A DNA stretch of 42,713 nucleotides from Bacteroidia bacterium. GTDB lineage: Bacteria; Bacteroidota; Bacteroidia; Cytophagales; JAAEPT01. Shown one piece after another: positions 9,637-33,097 of the stretch. Below the pieces are notes generated by a model. That model was not told where the DNA came from. It made no database searches and worked only from the letters and a program-made list of their open reading frames with translations. The translations under genes were made by a program, and so were the position numbers. Location: NCBI GenBank assembly GCA_030431525.1, contig JAUIJC010000035.1, forward strand, positions 1 to 42,713. Direction: 5' to 3'. Position 1 is the stretch's first letter, and each line of letters starts with the position of its first letter.

Positions 9637-11901
9637 TTGAAAAAATCGTTACTTACTGCCGCCGTTGTCGCAGCCTTTATGAGCTGGGGCGAGGCCAAGG
9701 CAACGACCGACGGACCTTCCGGAGAGGAAACGGTCCTTCTCCAGAAGCAAGAGGGAGATGCTGTTGCTCCGGAGCGCACAGCCAAGTTTAAGGGCGCTAA
9801 GAGCATTGCCAGTGGCTTGGGGCTGCGATTTTCGGGTTATGCTCGAATCTTTACGCTTTATCGCGCAATGGCTGATGGTAATTTCTATCAGGACAGCGAT
9901 AATATCAACAACTCAAAGGGATTGACTCTTCCTGTCAATCTTTCGTTGGATGATGGGTCTACTCAACCGTTGTTGATGCTTCGGATTGAAGGTAACCCAA
10001 CTGCCAAAACATCTTTTCAGATTGAAGCGAGTTTGAACAACTATTTGTTAGGAAACCATACAGGTATTCCTGATGAAACTGATCAAGGTCGCTGGGCAAA
10101 TATTTTTGCTGGCTTTTGGTTGAAAGGTGCCACAGTGACCGATTATGGTCGTTTTGAGTTGACAGCTGGTGCGGGTTCCATTTGGGAGAAAATGAGCCCG
10201 ATGACGCTTTGGAACTTCCAGTACCGCGATGACATGTTTGAGCGCTATCCATGGGATCCAGCAGGATTGAACTGGAGGCGTTATGAGTGGTACTATAATA
10301 CTGGTGATATTCCTCGTGACCAACGTTGGGGTAACCGAGGTATGCAGGGATTCGTGTTGAACGCCACTGATTTGCCATTGGGCTTGGAAGCTAAGCTTCT
10401 CTATGGTAAAACACGAGATTCTGGAGGTGACCAAAACTGGTCTAATGGTATTCCTCAGTCGATGCTTGGCGCACGTGTTAGTCGTCAGTTTGGACGCTTG
10501 AATGTCGGAGGTAACTATTATAATAGTTTTGGTTTTGATGAGACTCAGTCCATTACAAGGGATAACTACTCAACAATCTATGGTTCCTTGTTGTCTGATG
10601 AGGATGCAGCAAAAACCTTTACGATAGAGAATTACAACAGGAATGCTCAAACAGTGATTACTGGTGATGCATCTCTTAATACCAATTTTGCCCGCTTTTA
10701 TGGTGAGTTTGGTGCAGGGTCGTATTTGAGCAGAACCTACTATGATTGGACCATGTTTGAAGGTGCTGAAGATGGTCAGGTCTTCGATGGCTTCAAGCGT
10801 CAGTGGTCTCCATTGGCTTACATGGAAGCGGCAATTAAAAAGCCGTTGTTGCGAGGTCGATGGAAAGTAGCGGGTTATGCTATTGGTCAACATGCGGTAA
10901 ACAACCAATCGACATTTTTGAACTCTTCCATTGAAGAGGTGTTGAAAGGTGCCAACACCTCTAATTATGAAGGTGAGGCCAAATGGAACAATATCTTCTA
11001 TGATGGCATGATTACGGAAATTGGTCAGTTGACTAATAACCGTTGGGGTGCAGAAATGACTCACAAACGTGAGCATGGTAAACTCATCGTAGAGGCGTCT
11101 TGGGCCATGAACCAAGAAGTTGTTAACCACGGTACGACTGAGCGCAAAGAGGATATGTTGAACGGTATATTTGGTAAGTCATATACCGCCCCAGATCAAA
11201 GCAACATCCTTGAGTCAAGTGGGAACTATTATTTGGACGGAACCCGCAACGTGATTTCATTTTCTCACATTGTCAACCAGTACCAACGTTCCCGCTTCAG
11301 TTATAACCAACGTTTTAATGGTCCTAACCAGAGGTTGTTGTATGACTACCGTCGTACTTGGCAAAATGTGGCCATTTTGGATACTGTGGTTGACTACAGA
11401 AAGTCCTTCAATACATTGGAACTTAGCTTGAAGTACAAGGTTAATTTCTTAGGTAGAGGGCTGATTATTACAGGTTTTGGACGTGCTAACTCTGTTGGTG
11501 ATCGTCTTTCCCCAATTCCTTCCTTTAATGCTCAAGGCGATCATACTTTCTTGACACAGTGGTACGAGGAGTTGATGCTTTTCTATAATATTCACCGCAA
11601 GGTAACTTTGATTGGTTTGGTGGCTACTGAGCAAGTACGTGGTAATAATGAACGTACTGAGCAGTGGGATCCTGATACGGATGCGCCTGCTGTAGATGCC
11701 AATGGAAAGCCTATCTTGGTAGATGGTGGTAAGGCCATCAAGCAGAATGGTTTAGGTCTTGGTATTGGTCTTGACTACGACTTTGCTAACAATGCGTGCT
11801 TAGATGTTCGCTACCGTTGGTACAAGCACGAAGACAAGCATTTCACAAATGACAAATTCCAAGGGCAGGAAGTGACCTGCGAGCTTAAAATTTTCTTCTA
11901 A
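9637..11901 (+). CDS. Large outer-membrane beta-barrel protein, first gene of surface locus
   Basis: A protein of about 754 residues, not recognised as a named family. A signal peptide (KKSLLTAAVVAAFMSWGEAKA) is followed by many amphipathic strands rich in aromatic and glycine residues and a C-terminus ending in Phe (CELKIFF), as expected for an outer-membrane barrel. Alternating blocks such as LLMLRIEGNPTAKTSFQIEASL and LGARVSRQFGRLNVGGNYY fit paired barrel strands. No in-frame ATG precedes the signal peptide, so translation must begin at a TTG, either 9637 (chosen, gives a compact signal peptide) or 9607. It is followed after 82 bp by a second barrel gene and then three lipoprotein genes on the same strand. 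A role in surface polymer export or binding is inference only. Confidence 0.7.
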   Translation: MKKSLLTAAVVAAFMSWGEAKATTDGPSGEETVLLQKQEGDAVAPERTAKFKGAKSIASGLGLRFSGYARIFTLYRAMADGNFYQDSDNINNSKGLTLPVNLSLDDGSTQPLLMLRIEGNPTAKTSFQIEASLNNYLLGNHTGIPDETDQGRWANIFAGFWLKGATVTDYGRFELTAGAGSIWEKMSPMTLWNFQYRDDMFERYPWDPAGLNWRRYEWYYNTGDIPRDQRWGNRGMQGFVLNATDLPLGLEAKLLYGKTRDSGGDQNWSNGIPQSMLGARVSRQFGRLNVGGNYYNSFGFDETQSITRDNYSTIYGSLLSDEDAAKTFTIENYNRNAQTVITGDASLNTNFARFYGEFGAGSYLSRTYYDWTMFEGAEDGQVFDGFKRQWSPLAYMEAAIKKPLLRGRWKVAGYAIGQHAVNNQSTFLNSSIEEVLKGANTSNYEGEAKWNNIFYDGMITEIGQLTNNRWGAEMTHKREHGKLIVEASWAMNQEVVNHGTTERKEDMLNGIFGKSYTAPDQSNILESSGNYYLDGTRNVISFSHIVNQYQRSRFSYNQRFNGPNQRLLYDYRRTWQNVAILDTVVDYRKSFNTLELSLKYKVNFLGRGLIITGFGRANSVGDRLSPIPSFNAQGDHTFLTQWYEELMLFYNIHRKVTLIGLVATEQVRGNNERTEQWDPDTDAPAVDANGKPILVDGGKAIKQNGLGLGIGLDYDFANNACLDVRYRWYKHEDKHFTNDKFQGQEVTCELKIFF

Positions 11902-11958
11902 GCAGTTAACATTAACAGTTAGCAGTTAACATATTTCAAAAGAGGTTAGCTGCTTTTT
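11902..11958 (+). repeat. Heptamer array with hairpin between the two barrel genes
   Basis: Directly after the stop codon come units GCAGTTA, ACATTA (6 bp), ACAGTTA and GCAGTTA. AGCAGTTAAC (11921-11930) pairs fully (one G-U) with GTTAGCTGCT (11945-11954), followed by TTTT. The structure could work as a terminator or attenuator, lowering expression of the genes after the first barrel. Confidence 0.6.
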
Positions 11959-11983
11959 GATAAAGCATTTGAATCCTACAGAT

Positions 11984-13714
11984 ATGACTAAGAAACTTCT
12001 ACTCGCTGCGCCTTTGTTCATCGCCTCGATGTTGACGGCGACCGCGCAAAAAGTTGAGTTTGGTGGATTGGGACGTGCCGAGGTTGAGAACAACCAGCTG
12101 AATGACACGACTTCTGCTTCTACGGATAAAACTACAGGTGGTAAGGTTTTGATGGACCTTGGCATCCAAGTAAGCCGCGGAGATATTCTTCGTGCAAGTG
12201 CCATCCTTCGTGTGGTAAACGGATTTGGTAGCTTCGACGGTGATGCCGTTGACTTTACATTCCGTCAGCTTCGATTGGAGGGCTTGATTGGTAAAAAAGT
12301 CAAGTATGAGATTGGTGACTTGGATGTTGCCTTGACACCATATACCATTCATTTTGAGGATGACATTTATAACGGTTTTGAATCCGAGCTTTTCGGAATC
12401 CGTCGTGATGTTGTCAACTATGAGGGCTTTGTGACAGACGAGCACACTCGTCGTATGCAGGGTGTGAATCTCTTTACTACGTTGAATTTCAAATCTGGTG
12501 TTGAAAGCCTTTTCCTTCGTGGATTTGGTAACCGCTTGATTGGTGCTGATAAGACTTCTGGTCAGCCAGACCGTTTGTTGTTTGGTGGTCGTGCAGGATT
12601 GGTACAAAGCAAGTATTTCCAGATTGGTGTGAATGCTGTAGCTATCCACGATATCGCTGGATCAATTGGTTCAGAGGATTACCAGTATCGCAACTTGGTA
12701 ACTACTACAGATTTCCGTATTGCTTACCCAATGGGTAAGATTGATTTGGAACTTACTGGTGAGTTGGGTCGTTCTCAGCACTCAGATGTGCTCGGTTCAG
12801 GTACTGAAATGGATACCTTGGATTACAAGGATGGCTTCATGGATATCGGTTTGGGAGCTGACTTTAAGGATATGGGCTTGAAAGTTCGTGGTTCTTACCG
12901 TCGCGTTGGTATTAACTACATTTCTCCAGCAGCTCAGAGCCGTATGTTCTCTGCCTTCGGAGCCATGGATGCCGAGGGAAGCCTAGCCTCGGTTAACGGA
13001 GGTACGCGTAACTATTTGTTGTACGACCGTTTTACCCCAACCTTGTTGAACAGTGAGATTTCCACTGTGTTGATGGCTTATAACCCAGCATTCAGCAATG
13101 TTACTCCATATGGCGTTGCTACTCCAAACCGTCAAGGTTTGACCTTGAACGCTACTTATGAAGACAAAAAGGACCGTTTAGAGGCTGAGTTGATTTACGA
13201 CATGTTGAGCGAGATTGTGGGTGTAAACGTGGCTGAAACTCGTCAGTTTACTTCCTTGAAAGGTGGTCTTGCTCTTCACGTTAATAACTTCATCGGCTGG
13301 AAGAAGGAGGTTACCTTACATGGTGGTGTCCGTATGGAAAGTACAAAGCGTGATGAGTTGAGCATTGATCTTTCTTCAAACATTATCAATGCCGGTATCG
13401 ATTTGGAAGTGATTCCACGTCTCCACCTTTTGGCTGGCTACAAGATGTTGACGGCTAAGGGTAATGAGTACTTGCAGGAGCGTGATGATCTTAACCAATA
13501 TCCAACAGATGGATTGGTAGTTCGTCATGATTACGATTTCACTCAAGGAATTTTGGCTGCTGGTTTGAAATACAATTTCAGCGAGAACACCTTCTTCAAC
13601 TTCCAAGTTGATCAGTTTGTAGCGGGTCAAGATGAATCTGCTGTTCCTACTGGTGAAACCTTGCAGGACTACAACATCACCCAGTTCTACTTCAACTACA
13701 CGCAGAAGTTTTAA
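11984..13714 (+). CDS. Second outer-membrane beta-barrel protein
   Basis: A 576-residue exported protein with signal peptide residues 1-22 (ending LTATAQ). The mature part is all beta: KVEFGGLGRAEVENNQL at its start, many strands alternating charged or aromatic and small residues, and a terminal FYFNYTQKF with C-terminal Phe, typical of outer-membrane barrels. KYEIGDLDVALTPYTIHFEDD lies near residue 110-130. I do not recognise a named family. ATG 11984 is chosen over a TTG at 11957 that lies inside the upstream hairpin region. The next gene starts 18 bp after the stop, so it is co-transcribed with the lipoprotein genes. Its partner is probably the upstream barrel or the lipoproteins. Confidence 0.7.
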   Translation: MTKKLLLAAPLFIASMLTATAQKVEFGGLGRAEVENNQLNDTTSASTDKTTGGKVLMDLGIQVSRGDILRASAILRVVNGFGSFDGDAVDFTFRQLRLEGLIGKKVKYEIGDLDVALTPYTIHFEDDIYNGFESELFGIRRDVVNYEGFVTDEHTRRMQGVNLFTTLNFKSGVESLFLRGFGNRLIGADKTSGQPDRLLFGGRAGLVQSKYFQIGVNAVAIHDIAGSIGSEDYQYRNLVTTTDFRIAYPMGKIDLELTGELGRSQHSDVLGSGTEMDTLDYKDGFMDIGLGADFKDMGLKVRGSYRRVGINYISPAAQSRMFSAFGAMDAEGSLASVNGGTRNYLLYDRFTPTLLNSEISTVLMAYNPAFSNVTPYGVATPNRQGLTLNATYEDKKDRLEAELIYDMLSEIVGVNVAETRQFTSLKGGLALHVNNFIGWKKEVTLHGGVRMESTKRDELSIDLSSNIINAGIDLEVIPRLHLLAGYKMLTAKGNEYLQERDDLNQYPTDGLVVRHDYDFTQGILAAGLKYNFSENTFFNFQVDQFVAGQDESAVPTGETLQDYNITQFYFNYTQKF

Positions 13715-13732
13715 TCTAAACCTTCACAGATT

Positions 13733-14209
13733 ATGAGGAATTTATTGAAAAAATACCTCCCCCTGATGGTTGGTGTGTTTGCTGTGGGAGTATTGGCTTC
13801 TTGTGATGAGGAGCAGGATCAAGATATCTTCGGTACAAATGTGAAGACGCCAAGTCCTGGTTTTAAGGTTGATAGCTTTCAGCTATTTAAAATAAGGAAT
13901 GGTAGCTTACAGCCATTAGAGACGGGAGATAGAATATATCTTAATAATGAAAAGCTTGTTGTTAAGGCTGTTTTTAATGAAAATGTAACGGCAAAAATCC
14001 GTACAACTACATTAGAAAATAGCGCAATAAGTGAGTCGTTCATTTATGATGCTTCCGTCCTGGATAGCTCAAATTATCAGTGGTCTGGGTATTCTGATAA
14101 TAATGTTCCCTTTGAGAAAGATGATAATCTAATTGTTCAGATTTCATTTTTTGCATGGGACCAAGTATATACAGATACTTTGACAATTAAAGGGGTTCCA
14201 ACTCCTTAA
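13733..14209 (+). CDS. Small lipoprotein, paralogue of the next gene's N-terminal domain
   Basis: A 158-residue protein with lipoprotein signal peptide ending VLASCDEE (Cys 24), acidic residues following the Cys. The mature part is a single beta-sandwich-like domain. It aligns with residues about 24-148 of the protein encoded next: DIFGTNVKTPSPGFK against EILGTGVKPVSSDFK, then SNYQWSGYSDNNVPFEKDDN against SNTTWKGGQDEPVSTFFKEG, and VYTDTLTIK against VYYDTIVIE. The family is unknown to me. DNA from here to about 15300 looks richer in A+T than the two barrel genes before it. Likely an outer-membrane-anchored partner of the barrels. Confidence 0.7.
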   Translation: MRNLLKKYLPLMVGVFAVGVLASCDEEQDQDIFGTNVKTPSPGFKVDSFQLFKIRNGSLQPLETGDRIYLNNEKLVVKAVFNENVTAKIRTTTLENSAISESFIYDASVLDSSNYQWSGYSDNNVPFEKDDNLIVQISFFAWDQVYTDTLTIKGVPTP

Positions 14210-14240
14210 TAAATTCTGTTAAAAAAATTCCGATACGGGT

Positions 14241-15299
14241 ATGAAAACAAAGATGCTCAATAATGTACTCGGATATAGTCTAATTTCCCTTTTGTTAGGG
14301 GCTTTGGGTTGTTCCGGAGAAGAGGAAATCCTGGGGACAGGGGTTAAACCTGTGTCTTCTGATTTTAAGTGGGAAAATCACGAAGTTCAGTTGGCGGCAA
14401 AATCTTTTGATTTTACTGATATTTCAACAGCTTTTCACTTGGATGTTGATTTTGGCGAAGAGATTACAAGTGTATTGACGATAGAAGGGTTGGAGTCAAA
14501 GGCTCAGAAGCAGTTTGTTAATACTGCTTCACAATTGACCAGTTCTAATACTACTTGGAAGGGGGGGCAAGATGAACCAGTTTCTACTTTTTTTAAAGAA
14601 GGAGAAAAGGTGGTTGTGAAATTAGAAGCTTATGGTACGAGTGATGTCTATTATGATACAATTGTGATAGAAAAAGCTCAAGCTTTTGCCGATATTTCAA
14701 CTGACATGAAAGGGGCAAATCTGAATTTTGATCCAGGAAGTGCATCTACCTTTACCTGGTGGATAAAAGCTGGAGTTGGTGATTTGGAAGATAGTTCCCT
14801 GCCAAAAATTGATGATCAGTATTTGGTGATGGAGGGAACAGCTCCATCTAATAGCGTATATGTTGGTGGTGCTTCTTATGGTGGATGGAATGGTCCCTAT
14901 ATCAAGCAAATGAATGGTGATCCACTCTCTTCTGATCCTTCACAATTGTATTTTAATATATATGTTTATGGGACAGGGGATACAGACTCAGAATTGTATT
15001 TTAACTTCTATGAGGCTGATGGAGATCATGTGGGGAGTAATGCGAAAACTGATGATGCAGTACAGCTAAAAATTGTTCCATCTCATAAGGGTTGGAAGCT
15101 ATTAAGCTATAAGTACAGTGATTTGCCTTTTAGTACCTATGCACCTGGTGGGGGTAGCGGTAATAAGATTCATGAGCCTCATAAAATTGCTTTGATTGAC
15201 ATTGCTCTGCAAGCGACTTCACAAGGAGGAAGTGCAAAGGTAGTCGTTGATTATCCGTTTTTCACGATTAATCAGCCTTTCGATCCATCAAGGTATTAA
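14241..15299 (+). CDS. Lipoprotein: shared N-terminal domain plus carbohydrate-binding-like domain
   Basis: A 352-residue protein with lipoprotein signal ending GALGCSGEEE (Cys 24). Residues about 24-148 repeat the domain that forms the whole of the preceding protein. Residues about 155-350 form a second beta-rich domain with many Trp and Tyr (FTWWIKAG, VYVGGASYGGWNGPY, LYFNIYVYGTG, LYFNFYEADGDHVG, VDYPFF). This aromatic pattern resembles jelly-roll carbohydrate-binding modules or glycan-binding surface lipoproteins, though no specific CBM family could be assigned. The layout suggests that the first domain docks to a barrel or core complex and the second contacts a ligand. It lies in the five-gene operon starting at 9637. 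Confidence 0.7.
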   Translation: MKTKMLNNVLGYSLISLLLGALGCSGEEEILGTGVKPVSSDFKWENHEVQLAAKSFDFTDISTAFHLDVDFGEEITSVLTIEGLESKAQKQFVNTASQLTSSNTTWKGGQDEPVSTFFKEGEKVVVKLEAYGTSDVYYDTIVIEKAQAFADISTDMKGANLNFDPGSASTFTWWIKAGVGDLEDSSLPKIDDQYLVMEGTAPSNSVYVGGASYGGWNGPYIKQMNGDPLSSDPSQLYFNIYVYGTGDTDSELYFNFYEADGDHVGSNAKTDDAVQLKIVPSHKGWKLLSYKYSDLPFSTYAPGGGSGNKIHEPHKIALIDIALQATSQGGSAKVVVDYPFFTINQPFDPSRY

Positions 15300-15334
15300 T
15301 GTAGAGTCACAGGTTCTACAAACGACTAAAGACA

Positions 15335-16441
15335 ATGAAAAAATCAGTTATAGCAGTTGTTTCCTTGGTGGGCTTACTATTTAGTCAATGTGTCAGCGTT
15401 CAGACCATTGACTTGGATGGTAATGCCGTATCAGGGAGAACAGGAAATAAGGAGAAAACCAAGAATCAAAAATCAGTTGCTGCCTTGCAATACCAAGAAG
15501 GTGATTTGATGGCTGAGGATTGGAAGGCTGTGGGAAACCTCACTTTAATAAAGTCTGAAGGAGGTTATGCTATCAGGGCTAAAGAAGCTGGAAATCGTGA
15601 AGCGTTACTCACTCGTGAGTTTGATCGCCCTTTAAGTTTTAATGGTGGATTGGGTATCCGTGTTGTTGGGCGTTCTGAAGGTAGTGTGGCTCCAACGTTG
15701 AAATTGGAGTTGGTGGATGAGAATGGCTACGTGACCAATGAAAAGGACATGGAGCTGGAATTGGCTCAAGGAGAGATTTCAAATGAGTATTTCTTTAACC
15801 TAAATGGTGCCTTTGTACAACTACATCCAGAGATTGCTGATGTGGATGGAAAACGTATTCGTCGAATTAACCTTTATGTGAATCCTAAAGGTGATGAGTT
15901 TACAGGGAACATCCATCTTGAGGAAATTAAGGTGATTTACGGTGCCCAGATTGTTCATGAAGGAAAAGGTCCTGAAGGAAAAGATGGAGGAGTTGTAGAG
16001 GACTTTATGAAATCGTCTTCTTGGACCTCAAATAAGAAGAACATTTCCTTATTGCCAGGTTCGGGACATCTTAGGGTTGAGATGAATGAAGTAGGCCCTT
16101 CTCATGAAAGCTTTGAAGGAGAGGTTGAAACGGTGAATGTTCAGAATGCTAAAAAGTTTACTGTAAAAGCTAAAGTTGCAGGGGAGAAGCCATTGTTCTT
16201 GCGAATGGATTTGGTTGATGCAAATGGAGTGGCTACAAACTATCTTCCTGTGATTGTTCGCTTAAATCCTTCTTCTGAAATGCAGGAGTTGGTATTTGAC
16301 TTTGAAGGGCGTCTGGAGCAGTCTTATCCAATGGCTGCTTTGGATGTAAAGAGAATTTCTGGAGTACGGATCTATCCAAATCCAGCTTACCAACCTTATA
16401 CAGGGACCTTGATCATTGAAGAAATAAAGGCCATTCCATAA
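15335..16441 (+). CDS. Lipoprotein with two tandem carbohydrate-binding-like repeats
   Basis: A 368-residue protein with lipoprotein signal ending LLFSQCVS (Cys 19). After a short linker containing GNAVSGRTG come two homologous beta-sandwich repeats at about 55-215 and 225-368. Repeat 1 has LKLELVDENGYVTNEKDMELEL and IRRINLYVNPKGDEFTGNIHLEEIKVI. Repeat 2 has LRMDLVDANGVATNYLPVIVRL and ISGVRIYPNPAYQPYTGTLIIEEIKAI. Both resemble CBM11/CBM30-type or galactose-binding-like folds. The G-R-T-G motif recurs near the N-terminus of the T9SS-exported protein encoded next. This is the last gene before a terminator, so it closes the operon. Confidence 0.7.
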   Translation: MKKSVIAVVSLVGLLFSQCVSVQTIDLDGNAVSGRTGNKEKTKNQKSVAALQYQEGDLMAEDWKAVGNLTLIKSEGGYAIRAKEAGNREALLTREFDRPLSFNGGLGIRVVGRSEGSVAPTLKLELVDENGYVTNEKDMELELAQGEISNEYFFNLNGAFVQLHPEIADVDGKRIRRINLYVNPKGDEFTGNIHLEEIKVIYGAQIVHEGKGPEGKDGGVVEDFMKSSSWTSNKKNISLLPGSGHLRVEMNEVGPSHESFEGEVETVNVQNAKKFTVKAKVAGEKPLFLRMDLVDANGVATNYLPVIVRLNPSSEMQELVFDFEGRLEQSYPMAALDVKRISGVRIYPNPAYQPYTGTLIIEEIKAIP

Positions 16442-16473
16442 ATAGGGTTATAATTTCTATTGTCATTTGATTC

Positions 16474-16514
16474 AAATCACCTTCATGGGCTATCCGTTGA
16501 AGGTGATTTTTTGT
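16474..16514 (+). terminator. Rho-independent terminator of the surface-locus operon
   Basis: AAATCACCTTCA (16474-16485) and its exact complement TGAAGGTGATTT (16498-16509) enclose a 12-nt loop and are followed by a T run. It lies 33 bp past the stop of the tandem-repeat lipoprotein gene. Confidence 0.85.
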
Positions 16515-16557
16515 TTAAGGAGCTTCAATCTTTTAGGAATAAATTTGCCACATTGTT

Positions 16558-16586
16558 TTGGAGAAGATTACAAGTTTGTATCTTGT
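16558..16586 (+). promoter_or_regulatory. Candidate promoter of the T9SS-exported protein
   Basis: TTG (16558-16560), 18 bp, then TATCTTGT (16579-16586), close to the Bacteroidota TTG...TAnnTTTG arrangement, 48 bp before the start codon. It lies between the preceding terminator and the gene, where a new promoter is needed. Confidence 0.45.
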
Positions 16587-16633
16587 GAAAGGTTTTTTAC
16601 ACTAATTGTTCACACCTAAACAATTCACTACCC

Positions 16634-17569
16634 ATGAAAAAATCAGTACTCTTCGGAATGGGCTTGTTCGCGGCCGCTTCTATGGCTTTCGCTCAAAATG
16701 AAACAAACTCAGACCAATCAGGTAACCAACCATCTGCTGGACGTACAGGTTACACTTATGAGTTCAACACACCGTTTGAAACATCTGACGAGAATGATGA
16801 TGTTCAGTGCCTAAATGAGGTAGATCCAACTTCTGGTAATCCAACTGTTTGGAATACAGAGAATCGCGCTGGTTATAGTTTCGGGACTGGTGAGGGGTCT
16901 TTGTTAATTGATCTTGATGGTTCTCAAGGAGAGTTTTCTGTACCAAACGTTCGTTTTACAGAGGATAATTGTGCTAATGTAATTGCAAATCCAATCGATT
17001 TGTCTGGTACAGATGCTACTCAAGTTAAAGTTCGTCTTCGTTCTGACGTTGATGTTGCAGATTTCCGTATCATCGTTGCTATTTTGAGCAATGACCAAGT
17101 AGTCTATGCTGATTTTGATGCAACATCAGTTGCATTGACAGGTGATAATGAGTGGCAAGAGCTTACTTTGGAAGGTGGTACTAAGCAGTGGAGTGCAACT
17201 GAACCTGATGGTGTTGTTTTGGATTTGAGCCAGGCTATTGGTTTTGGTTTCAAAGCAGTAAACGGTGCTACAGATAACCCACAAGGTACTATCGAGATTG
17301 ATTATATCACTTTCGGTGATGGTGTAATTACTTCTAACGAAGAAGCTGTTGTATCTAACGTTAACATCTTCCCTAACCCATCTACTGGTGTTGTAAACGT
17401 TGAGGCTGAAGCTGGTCAGTCTATCGTTATCCGTGACATGGTTGGCGCTGAGGTTGCTGCTGGCACTGAGAACTTGACTGTAAACGACTTGCAAGCTGGT
17501 ATCTACGTTGCTACTATCACTACTGCTGAGGGTGTAGTTGTAGAAACTCGCAAGGTTATCGTTAAATAA
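16634..17569 (+). CDS. T9SS-exported beta-sandwich protein with type A sorting domain
   Basis: A 311-residue protein with signal peptide residues 1-20 (ending MAFAQ), then a short linker with QPSAGRTG. A beta-sandwich at about 40-235 has IDLSGTDATQVKVRLRSD and FGFKAVNG followed by GTIEIDYITFGD, like carbohydrate-binding or galactose-binding-like folds. A C-terminal type IX sorting domain fills about 238-311: NIFPNPSTGVVNVE, IRDMVGAEV, LQAGIYVATI and the final TRKVIVK. The domain directs transport through the outer membrane and attachment to, or release from, the surface. It is a monocistronic gene with its own candidate promoter and terminator, directly after the barrel/lipoprotein operon. 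It is probably the secreted or surface partner of that operon, since it shares the G-R-T-G motif with the last lipoprotein. Confidence 0.8.
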   Translation: MKKSVLFGMGLFAAASMAFAQNETNSDQSGNQPSAGRTGYTYEFNTPFETSDENDDVQCLNEVDPTSGNPTVWNTENRAGYSFGTGEGSLLIDLDGSQGEFSVPNVRFTEDNCANVIANPIDLSGTDATQVKVRLRSDVDVADFRIIVAILSNDQVVYADFDATSVALTGDNEWQELTLEGGTKQWSATEPDGVVLDLSQAIGFGFKAVNGATDNPQGTIEIDYITFGDGVITSNEEAVVSNVNIFPNPSTGVVNVEAEAGQSIVIRDMVGAEVAAGTENLTVNDLQAGIYVATITTAEGVVVETRKVIVK

Positions 17570-17617
17570 GTTTAGGAGTCTATTGATTACTTGTTAATCA
17601 ATTCTTCAAAACATAGG

Positions 17618-17650
17618 AACCCGACGGGCAATGCTCGTCGGGTTTTTTTG
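17618..17650 (+). terminator. Rho-independent terminator
   Basis: AACCCGACG and CGTCGGGTT form a GC-rich stem around GGCAATGCT, followed by seven T. It lies about 50 bp past the stop at 17569. Confidence 0.9.
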
Positions 17651-17758
17651 TTTTAGGAATGAATTTTTGATGCTATTCGCTGGGAATAGATTTTCTTGTT
17701 CTTACATTTATAGTAGTTAACTGATTGAAAAATAGGTCAATAACTTTTTGTCATTTTT

Positions 17759-18016
17759 ATGAAAAGGCTTTTTTCATCATTCCTTTTACTTGGAGTGCTA
17801 ACGTCTTGTGGAGGTGAAAAACTTAATCGAGATAACTTTGAATTAGTAAGACAGGGAATGACTAAGGAGCAAGTGGAACAGATTCTGGGTCAAGGTCAAT
17901 CCAATACGACGAATACAAGGAGTGGAGAGGTGGTATCATGGAAAAGTGGTTTTAAAATTATTACCATCTCCTTTGTCCACGGTGAGGTTTCTCGAAAAAA
18001 TCAGGTAGGGCTTTAA
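17759..18016 (+). CDS. Small DUF3862/BamE-like lipoprotein
   Basis: An 85-residue lipoprotein with signal ending VLTSCGGE (Cys 17). Mature residues 22-80 carry the BamE/SmpA-like pattern of DUF3862: NFELVRQGMTKEQVEQILGQG (helix pair with G-M-T), then WKSGFKIITISFVHGEVSRK (beta strands). Proteins of this fold are envelope-assembly or protease-inhibitor-like domains, and the role here is unknown. It stands alone between a terminator and a large palindrome and converges on the epimerase gene. Confidence 0.7.
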   Translation: MKRLFSSFLLLGVLTSCGGEKLNRDNFELVRQGMTKEQVEQILGQGQSNTTNTRSGEVVSWKSGFKIITISFVHGEVSRKNQVGL

Positions 18017-32702: not shown

Positions 32703-33080
32703 GAGTACAGGTCGTTCTGTCGCTGCCTCGTCATAGATGAGGGAGAGGAAAGTCCGGGCACCATAGGACATCGTGCTTCCTAACGGGAAGGGTCTGCCAG
32801 CTGGCGGATACAGAAAGTGCCGCAGAAAGCTATACCGCCTACGTCCATCTCTGATGGGCCGGTAAGGGTGAAAAGGTGGGGTAAGAGCCCACCAGTACCT
32901 CAGGTGACTGGGGTAGCTGGGTAAACCTCACGAGGTGAAAGTCCAAATAGGCTGACGCTGTAGGGCGGTCCGTCCGATGTCAGTGGGTAGGGCGTTCGAG
33001 GCTGTCGGTGACGGCAGATTTAGATAAATGACAGAAATCCGCTCCGGCGGAAACAGAACCCGGCTTATTGGCCTGTACTT
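32703..33080 (+). ncRNA. rnpB: RNase P RNA, bacterial type A
   Basis: The catalytic RNA that trims tRNA 5' leaders. The P1 stem AGTACAGG (32704-32711) pairs with CCTGTACT (33072-33079). The conserved GAGGAAAGTCCGGGC lies near the 5' end (about 32750), with AAAGTGCCGCAGAAA-type and GGTGAAAAGGTG blocks in the middle. GAGGTGAAAGTCCAAATAGG and ACAGAACCCGGCTTA lie at the 3' side. Total about 378 nt, usual for the type. A possible -7 element TAATTTG lies at 32692-32698. No classical terminator follows; instead a heptamer array hairpin begins 18 bp downstream. Confidence 0.95.
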
Positions 33081-33097
33081 TCTTTTTACTTTAGTGG

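Follow-up and report, generated by a model that had tools for sequence, protein, structure and literature searches.

A SusC/SusD-independent outer-membrane gene core of the CHU_1276-1280 type in a Cytophagales bacterium: its conservation in Bacteroidota and most likely role in glycan uptake

Introduction

What might a run of bacterial envelope genes be doing when it contains neither SusC nor SusD, nor any hydrolase, kinase or regulator? The question is raised by a 42,713-nucleotide stretch of DNA (contig JAUIJC010000035.1, assembly GCA_030431525.1, from a member of the Cytophagales; hereafter the window), in which positions 9637-17569 hold six uninterrupted open reading frames (ORFs), designated A to F, all running in one direction. 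An earlier note, drawn from the letters alone, took all six for a candidate undescribed surface system, with a layout fitting the display or anchoring of a glycan-binding fibre or matrix protein. The analysis reported here leads elsewhere: genes A to E probably constitute the outer-membrane core of a SusC/SusD-independent polysaccharide-utilisation system of the kind encoded by chu_1276-1280 in Cytophaga hutchinsonii, serving glycan capture and uptake. The A-B-D-E set is a genuine conserved core that does without SusC/SusD, and a role in glycan uptake is the most likely one for it. Its members in the window are as follows.

Gene A, 9637..11901, + strand: 754 amino acids (aa) from a TTG start; predicted plug-free outer-membrane beta-barrel, CHU_1276 homologue
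Gene B, 11984..13714, + strand: 576 aa; predicted plug-free, 22-stranded outer-membrane beta-barrel, CHU_1277 homologue
Gene C, 13733..14209, + strand: 158 aa; single-domain lipoprotein that duplicates the N-terminal region of D
Gene D, 14241..15299, + strand: 352 aa; longer surface lipoprotein, CHU_1278 homologue
Gene E, 15335..16441, + strand: 368 aa; lipoprotein with two repeats resembling carbohydrate-binding modules (CBMs), CHU_1279 homologue, similar to surface glycan-binding protein B (SGBP-B)

The TTG start of A at 9637 is presumed, 9607 being an alternative. When the single window proteins were scanned against Pfam and NCBIfam, A to E remained unnamed and gave no usable match, and no SusC/SusD, hydrolase, kinase or regulator family rose above its cut-off in any of the six proteins, in agreement with the earlier reading of the gene content.

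Correspondence to the cellulose cluster of Cytophaga hutchinsonii

In C. hutchinsonii, A is matched by a 747-aa ORF (CHU_1276; 34% identity, E 6e-120), B by a 606-aa ORF (CHU_1277; 38%, E 7e-121), D by a 380-aa ORF (CHU_1278; 30%, E 1e-27) and E, over its residues 3-367, by a 375-aa ORF (CHU_1279; 25%, E 1.7e-33). The four window genes correspond to CHU_1276-1279 in the same order and direction, the extra gene C standing before D. At the locus concerned (L101), the ORFs of 747, 606, 380 and 375 aa are followed by an ORF of glycoside hydrolase family 9 (GH9), and the 375-aa ORF was recognised as CHU_1279 by its length and by residues W89, F92, F180, Y253, F256 and F343, which occupy the published positions of those mutated in PMC12016534.

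The chu_1276-chu_1280 cluster has been published as an atypical cellulose polysaccharide utilisation locus (PUL), reported in three cellulolytic species, namely C. hutchinsonii, C. aurantiaca and S. myxococcoides (PMC12016534). The use of cellulose was found to need CHU_1276, CHU_1277 and CHU_1279 (PMC12016534); CHU_1277 was described as a protein of the outer membrane on which cellulose use critically depends (PMC5553014), and CHU_1276 and CHU_1277 were together named as essential (PMC7906972). According to PMC12016534, CHU_1279, termed SGBP-B-like, binds cellulose and is indispensable for growth with it, CHU_1278 is likened to an SGBP, and mutants in chu_1279 and chu_1276 grow poorly on low glucose. 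Cells lacking CHU_1279 kept their adhesion to filter paper and lost growth on cellulose (PMC12016534). Because of this clear match to a characterised cluster, an outcome that the earlier note had itself named as refuting, the label “undescribed” attached to the locus by the earlier note is unsupported.

Two homologous barrels without a TonB plug

Structure prediction bore out the two outer-membrane barrels that had been called from the sequence. The AlphaFold2 model of A (pLDDT 78.9, pTM 0.82) contains about 22-24 strands, as counted from the listed secondary structure, with the first strand at residue 63 and low confidence at residues 15-59; the predicted structure of B (pLDDT 90.2, pTM 0.87) has 22 strands, beginning at residue 23. 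The two proteins are homologues (hhalign 99.2%, E 3e-19, 497 columns), and the pair is nameless in Pfam and NCBIfam scans except for weak general barrel models, such as OMP_b-brl, which matches 12 of the 64 B relatives in Pfam.

No TonB plug family was detected with Pfam in 57 A and 64 B relatives, and the models of A and B, as predicted, leave no room for one. The TonB-transporter chains shown against the B model align from their own residue 133 or later, i.e. with their barrel part. Several of the rows for A, on the other hand, start inside the solved plug (BtuB residue 16, Cir residue 34); these rows begin at model residues 27-60, a disordered segment too short for a plug. The identification of A as a TonB-dependent transporter (TBDT) was dropped on the evidence of its relatives, its model and the structural alignments.

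A broader form of the same idea holds that the block is a canonical TonB-dependent SusC/SusD PUL whose parts have diverged past recognition, and it can appeal to the TBDT matches reported for CHU_1276 (PMC12016534), to the 22 strands of B and to the presence of a SusC-type entry, BT1762-1763, among the VIA structure matches (Z 14.4 for A, 14.9 for B). Against it stand the lack of any plug family in the relatives and of space in the models, the failure of D and 55 D relatives to match any SusD family, and a window genome in which neither PF07980 nor PF14322 found a match at E 0.001. We regard this explanation as very improbable, and the earlier statement that the locus is not a normal PUL is upheld, neither SusD nor a TonB plug having been found.

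The structural neighbours of the barrels also allow the opposite direction of transport to be proposed, with A and B secreting or anchoring an exopolysaccharide or fibre in the manner of AlgE, which is an exporter. AlgE chains rank best when the B model is searched with Foldseek (E 2.6e-10), and a pilus usher heads the VIA list for both A and B. The barrel similarities are generic, however, at 7-15% identity, with TonB-transporter barrels, porins and ushers similar in Z and the AlgE matches close to them. Sequence searches of the PDB with the window proteins gave no convincing relative; for B they brought up just one OprF chain (E 0.0023, 124 columns) besides a chance-level row. The remaining evidence on export is taken up with gene F below.

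Conserved positions fall unevenly within B, where two long loops making up about 20% of the protein contain 18 of the 48 conserved columns (binomial p 0.007); in A the long loops hold 11 of 38 (p 0.09). This loop conservation is suggestive only, and the loops are placed on the extracellular side from strand order; the two loops of B are best described as a candidate gate or docking face on the predicted structure.

Three lipoproteins at the cell surface

The count of three lipoproteins was likewise confirmed, a cysteine occupying the lipobox position at residue 24 in C, residue 24 in D and residue 19 in E; it is invariant in the family alignments of both D (Cys24) and E. By hhalign, C is a homologue of the N-terminal portion of D (98% against the D profile), as the earlier note had supposed in describing a longer lipoprotein that shares the domain of the shorter one. 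The E family is homologous to a group of proteins from related loci, cluster 0 (hhalign 97.6%), whose representative matches CBM30 at 1.2e-15; the similarity of E to F is weak (hhalign 48%).

The putative binding face of E departs from that of CHU_1279. At the positions of the cellulose-binding residues Y253, F256 and F343, E has H257, F260 and Y347, hence aromatics at two of three; in the N-terminal repeat, the counterparts of W89, F92 and F180 are E89, L92 and Y181, hence an aromatic at one of three. The ligand of the window protein may be another beta-glycan, because its binding-face residues differ from those of CHU_1279.

Distribution and gene order of the core

The breadth of the A-B-D-E core across Bacteroidota is new, the C. 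hutchinsonii cluster itself having already been published; among the titles and abstract openings listed from the open-licence literature, nothing extends the core beyond the three cellulolytic species. B was found in 10 of 79 genomes searched (the window genome included), at 23 places and up to five per genome. At the 22 loci outside the window, for which the fetched DNA extends no more than about 1.5 kb on either side, tblastn located A in 21 (all except L017) and D in 20 (all except L016 and L018). With a profile, B was recovered from 26 of the order's 390 genomes, three candidates per genome being scored there, and across the phylum from 6 of 395. Four of these six come from other classes, and in each of the four A, B and D occur together. 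At those four loci (L123, L124, L125 and L127), an ORF upstream of A also matches the D profile, with 15.8 to 57.4 bits; at L123, the one scanned for it, this ORF bears the tail of a type IX secretion system (T9SS) substrate.

A scan of named genomes with two peptide patterns, which tilts the sample towards B proteins bearing these motifs, yielded 77 loci, mostly in metagenome-assembled genomes (MAGs), from Cytophaga, Sporocytophaga, other Cytophagales, Saprospiraceae, Chitinophagales and Flavobacteriales. Some of the loci are near-duplicates (e.g. L075/L077, L078/L079 and L064/L087), and two (L095 and L099) lack a plus-strand B in the gene calls. A locus was counted as testable for A if B starts beyond base 600 (66 loci), and for D, E and enzymes if more than 600, 2,600 and 4,000 bases, respectively, follow B (66, 57 and 50 loci). 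On this basis A is the gene immediately preceding B in 65 of 66 loci (the miss is L080), with a median gap of 4 bases, and D follows no more than two genes after B, likewise in 65 of 66 (the miss is L089). E or an E-like member of cluster 0 is present in 50 of 57; six of the seven loci lacking it (L034, L040, L044, L047, L051, L052 and L076) have a tandem of two D-type lipoproteins, an arrangement similar to the C-D pair in the window. The prediction that the block would be conserved in other genomes, a check set beforehand, is therefore borne out for A, B, D and E and fails for F.

Linked enzymes and the association with cellulases

Genes for hydrolases or sulfatases, on either strand, accompany the core in 45 of the 50 loci that extend over 4 kb past B, and a firmly assigned family (GH9, GH3, GH16, GH18, GH30 and others) does so in 41; five loci have no enzyme (L043, L044, L049, L055 and L061) and four have a weakly assigned TIM barrel alone (L038, L039, L045 and L089). 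The recurrent enzymes are GH3, GH9, GH16, GH18, GH30, GH43, GH67, sulfatases and the TIM barrel (weakly GH2/GH5), joined by sodium:solute symporters (SSF), sugar transporters of the major facilitator superfamily, and regulators of the NrtR/AraR-like and Y_Y_Y-LuxR types. Phaeocystidibacter luteus, for one, has a copy linked to GH16/GH30 (L074). Among the non-core genes of at least 150 aa, enzymes make up 74 of 196 in the same run as the core and 23 of 288 elsewhere in the loci (Fisher 1.7e-15), an in-run excess that is inflated by the way in which enzymes were called, i.e. by BLAST to 15 representatives, nine of which came from in-run genes. As to SusC/SusD components in these surroundings, TonB_dep_Rec was represented near the relatives by one protein in L037, on the opposite strand, and one match in L068 (phmmer with the single L037 query against 847 proteins); a tally over 65 proteins lists 25 of 100 families, so that single SusC or SusD matches may have escaped it, and no single SusD search was made there.

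The copies of the system group by enzyme partner. In a quickly built tree containing 66 B proteins, with labels assigned by a fixed priority rule, 14 changes of enzyme label are needed over 38 labelled rows, compared with at least 19 (mean 22.2) in 500 shuffles; for the Cytophagales-type copies, there are 6 changes over 17 rows, compared with at least 7 in 500 shuffles. Within a single MAG, Prado077, the GH9-, GH18- and TIM-barrel-linked copies of B cluster with like-linked copies of other genomes and not with one another. An association with cellulases was also evident at the level of whole genomes: within the order, GH9 occurs in 21 of the 26 genomes that have B and in 148 of the 364 that lack it (Fisher 1e-4), and at least four GH9 matches in 16 of 26 and 11 of 364, respectively, three or four candidates per genome having been scored in the scans behind these counts; the B-positive genomes showing no GH9 are G001, G012, G091, G144 and G202. 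Both the sorting of labels and the GH9 association are confounded with phylogeny, enzyme labels partly coinciding with taxonomy, and the GH9 counts take no account of kinship.

The window operon: working system or relic

A to E are tightly packed in one run, which ends in the following feature.

Intrinsic-terminator-like hairpin, 16475..16513, + strand: 3' of E; -17.2 kcal/mol, z -4.65 relative to shuffles, followed by a T run

This hairpin, which divides E from F, is absent from the list produced by a consensus terminator scan. A sigma-70 promoter scan of the window performed no better than on shuffles, and a Bacteroidota promoter pattern matched once in the window, outside the A-E block, as often as chance would have it.

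Several points weigh against reading A to E as a glycan-uptake core. Genes for hydrolases, transporters and regulators are missing from the window operon, and within the families searched the genome shows few relevant hydrolases, namely one GH9 (E 3e-40, on another contig), one GH5 and two GH3. The altered binding face of E, the AlgE match of B, the plug-starting alignments of A and the two cautions on the enzyme statistics given above belong with them. Some of these points would be accommodated if the window held a relic or repurposed core of the CHU_1276 type, which has lost its enzyme and now acts as a general sugar porin with lectins, or is decaying. Besides the missing hydrolase linkage and the changed residues of E, such a history would fit the long end branch of the window B (1.01 compared with a median of 0.49) and the resemblance of C to a shortened D. 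On the other side, all five ORFs are uninterrupted, the gene order has been retained, and cellulase- and chitinase-type enzymes with T9SS tails are encoded elsewhere in the genome. The relic explanation is accordingly judged unlikely, though it is the one among the alternatives to be taken most seriously.

Candidate T9SS-tailed enzymes outside the window operon are GH5, GH9 and GH19. In a cluster on contig C16 of the same genome (L129:6222-13999), three T9SS-tailed proteins, namely a GH5, a GH19 and one that is uncharacterised, are accompanied by a DUF748 protein and by a regulator of the LuxR type (weak Y_Y_Y match). This cluster is a possible enzyme partner of the window operon.

Gene F and the remainder of the window

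Gene F, 16634..17569, + strand: 311 aa; T9SS type A substrate, judged to lie outside the conserved system
Hairpin of F, 17615-17647: its own hairpin, 3' of F

F was correctly recognised as a sorting-domain protein, its type A C-terminal sorting tail matching Por_Secre_tail at 1.4e-8 (PF18962 and TIGR04183, 35.3 bits each, both above cut-off). In the 79 genomes searched, its close relatives are found in its own genome only, at 46, 42 and 44% identity, the latter two being repeats within a single 911-aa ORF of another contig. Matches in 14 other genomes lie mostly from about residue 200 onward, around the sorting tail; one, in G064, spans residues 79 to 302 (27%, E 2.4e-7), on a contig different from those carrying B there. 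F is considered to be outside the conserved system because its close relatives are confined to its own genome and a hairpin stands between E and F, and it was dropped as a member. The view of all six genes as one unit thus stands for A to E, which form one run and of which A, B, D and E are conserved together, and falls for F.

The export or display alternative, with the AlgE and usher matches in its favour, can also count the adjoining T9SS substrate. F is not conserved with the block, however, the genes linked to the core in relatives are degradative hydrolases and sugar transporters, and cells without CHU_1279 adhere to cellulose yet cannot grow on it (PMC12016534). We consider this alternative decidedly improbable; for the same reasons, i.e. 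the lack of conservation of F, the hydrolase linkage and the adhesion retained without CHU_1279, the proposal of an anchored fibre or matrix protein is unsupported.

Elsewhere in the window, the two 2-kb blocks at 14001-18000, which cover D to F, have a G+C content of 0.40 compared with 0.43-0.48 in the remainder. A small lipoprotein-like ORF at 17759-18016 shows weak BamE/OsmE similarity, under the curated cut-offs, and positions 32704-33083 hold a class A RNase P RNA of the bacterial type (Rfam RF00010, 281 bits).

Proposed mechanism and significance

With glycan capture and uptake as the preferred function, the following working model may be put forward. E, with its two CBM-like repeats, and C and D, all lipid-anchored on the cell surface, would capture the glycan or its oligosaccharides, and would dock on the barrels. 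A and B, as plug-free homologous barrels, would admit oligosaccharides or sugars to the periplasm; their long conserved loops, the lipoproteins or both would act as the gate in place of a TonB-driven plug, while periplasmic hydrolysis and inner-membrane sugar transport would pull the flux. For the window system, the hydrolases would be supplied from outside the operon. We infer complex formation, the gating by loops, the direction of transport, its independence of TonB and the window substrate.

On a wider scale, there is a somewhat better than even chance that A-B-D-E represents a second general TonB-plug-free glycan-uptake core of Bacteroidota, parallel to SusC/SusD, built on a pair of large homologous barrels, present in up to five paralogues per genome, gated by conserved loops and surface lipoproteins and specialised for cellulose, chitin, xylan, beta-glucan or sulfated glycans by its linked enzymes. 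The core seems to be an overlooked alternative to SusC/SusD because related sets adjoin different sugar-cutting enzymes in other Bacteroidota. By its own statement, PMC6794258 left PULs lacking susC/D aside, and most susC/D-less loci have been judged to be fragments by PMC6499787, which names 2,533 such loci; the passages on non-canonical PULs in PMC6794258 and PMC9122927 name no such core. Should the wider proposal hold true, some of the “SusC/D-less” hydrolase clusters now regarded as fragments of PULs would turn out to be whole systems of this type. Through the data on linkage the published cluster becomes a wider, testable family that has a conserved outer-membrane core of its own; they also bear on how cellulolytic Cytophaga take up the products of cellulose without SusC/SusD. 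The A-B pair offers a handle by which such loci can be located, predictors based on susC/susD being bound to miss them.

Comparison with known systems

The porins of the OprD/Occ type and AlgE share with A and B a plug-free barrel of similar overall fold. AlgE and OprD barrels have 18 strands, whereas B has 22, and at about 10% identity no sequence relation is shown.

With the SusC/SusD PULs, the present system has in common its surface lipoproteins with glycan-binding-like repeats, its large outer-membrane barrels, the hydrolases in the same run among relatives and the sorting of paralogues by enzyme partner. It differs in that no SusD and no TonB plug were found, and in having two homologous barrels instead of one transporter.

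Similarity to SGBP-B proteins lies in the architecture of E, i.e. two CBM-like repeats behind a lipobox cysteine; by way of difference, the SGBP-B-like protein of C. hutchinsonii is essential and belongs to a cluster without SGBP-A (SusD) (PMC12016534).

The nearest counterpart is chu_1276-1280 itself, with which the window shares the barrel pair and the lipoproteins of the CHU_1278 and CHU_1279 types, in order and direction. The window block lacks the downstream GH9 endoglucanase (CHU_1280) and, by Pfam and NCBIfam, any hydrolase, adds the one-domain lipoprotein C, has an altered binding face in E and retains only 25-38% identity. Whereas the published cluster is reported from three species, the core described here spans several orders, occurs in other classes of the phylum too and stands beside other hydrolases as well.

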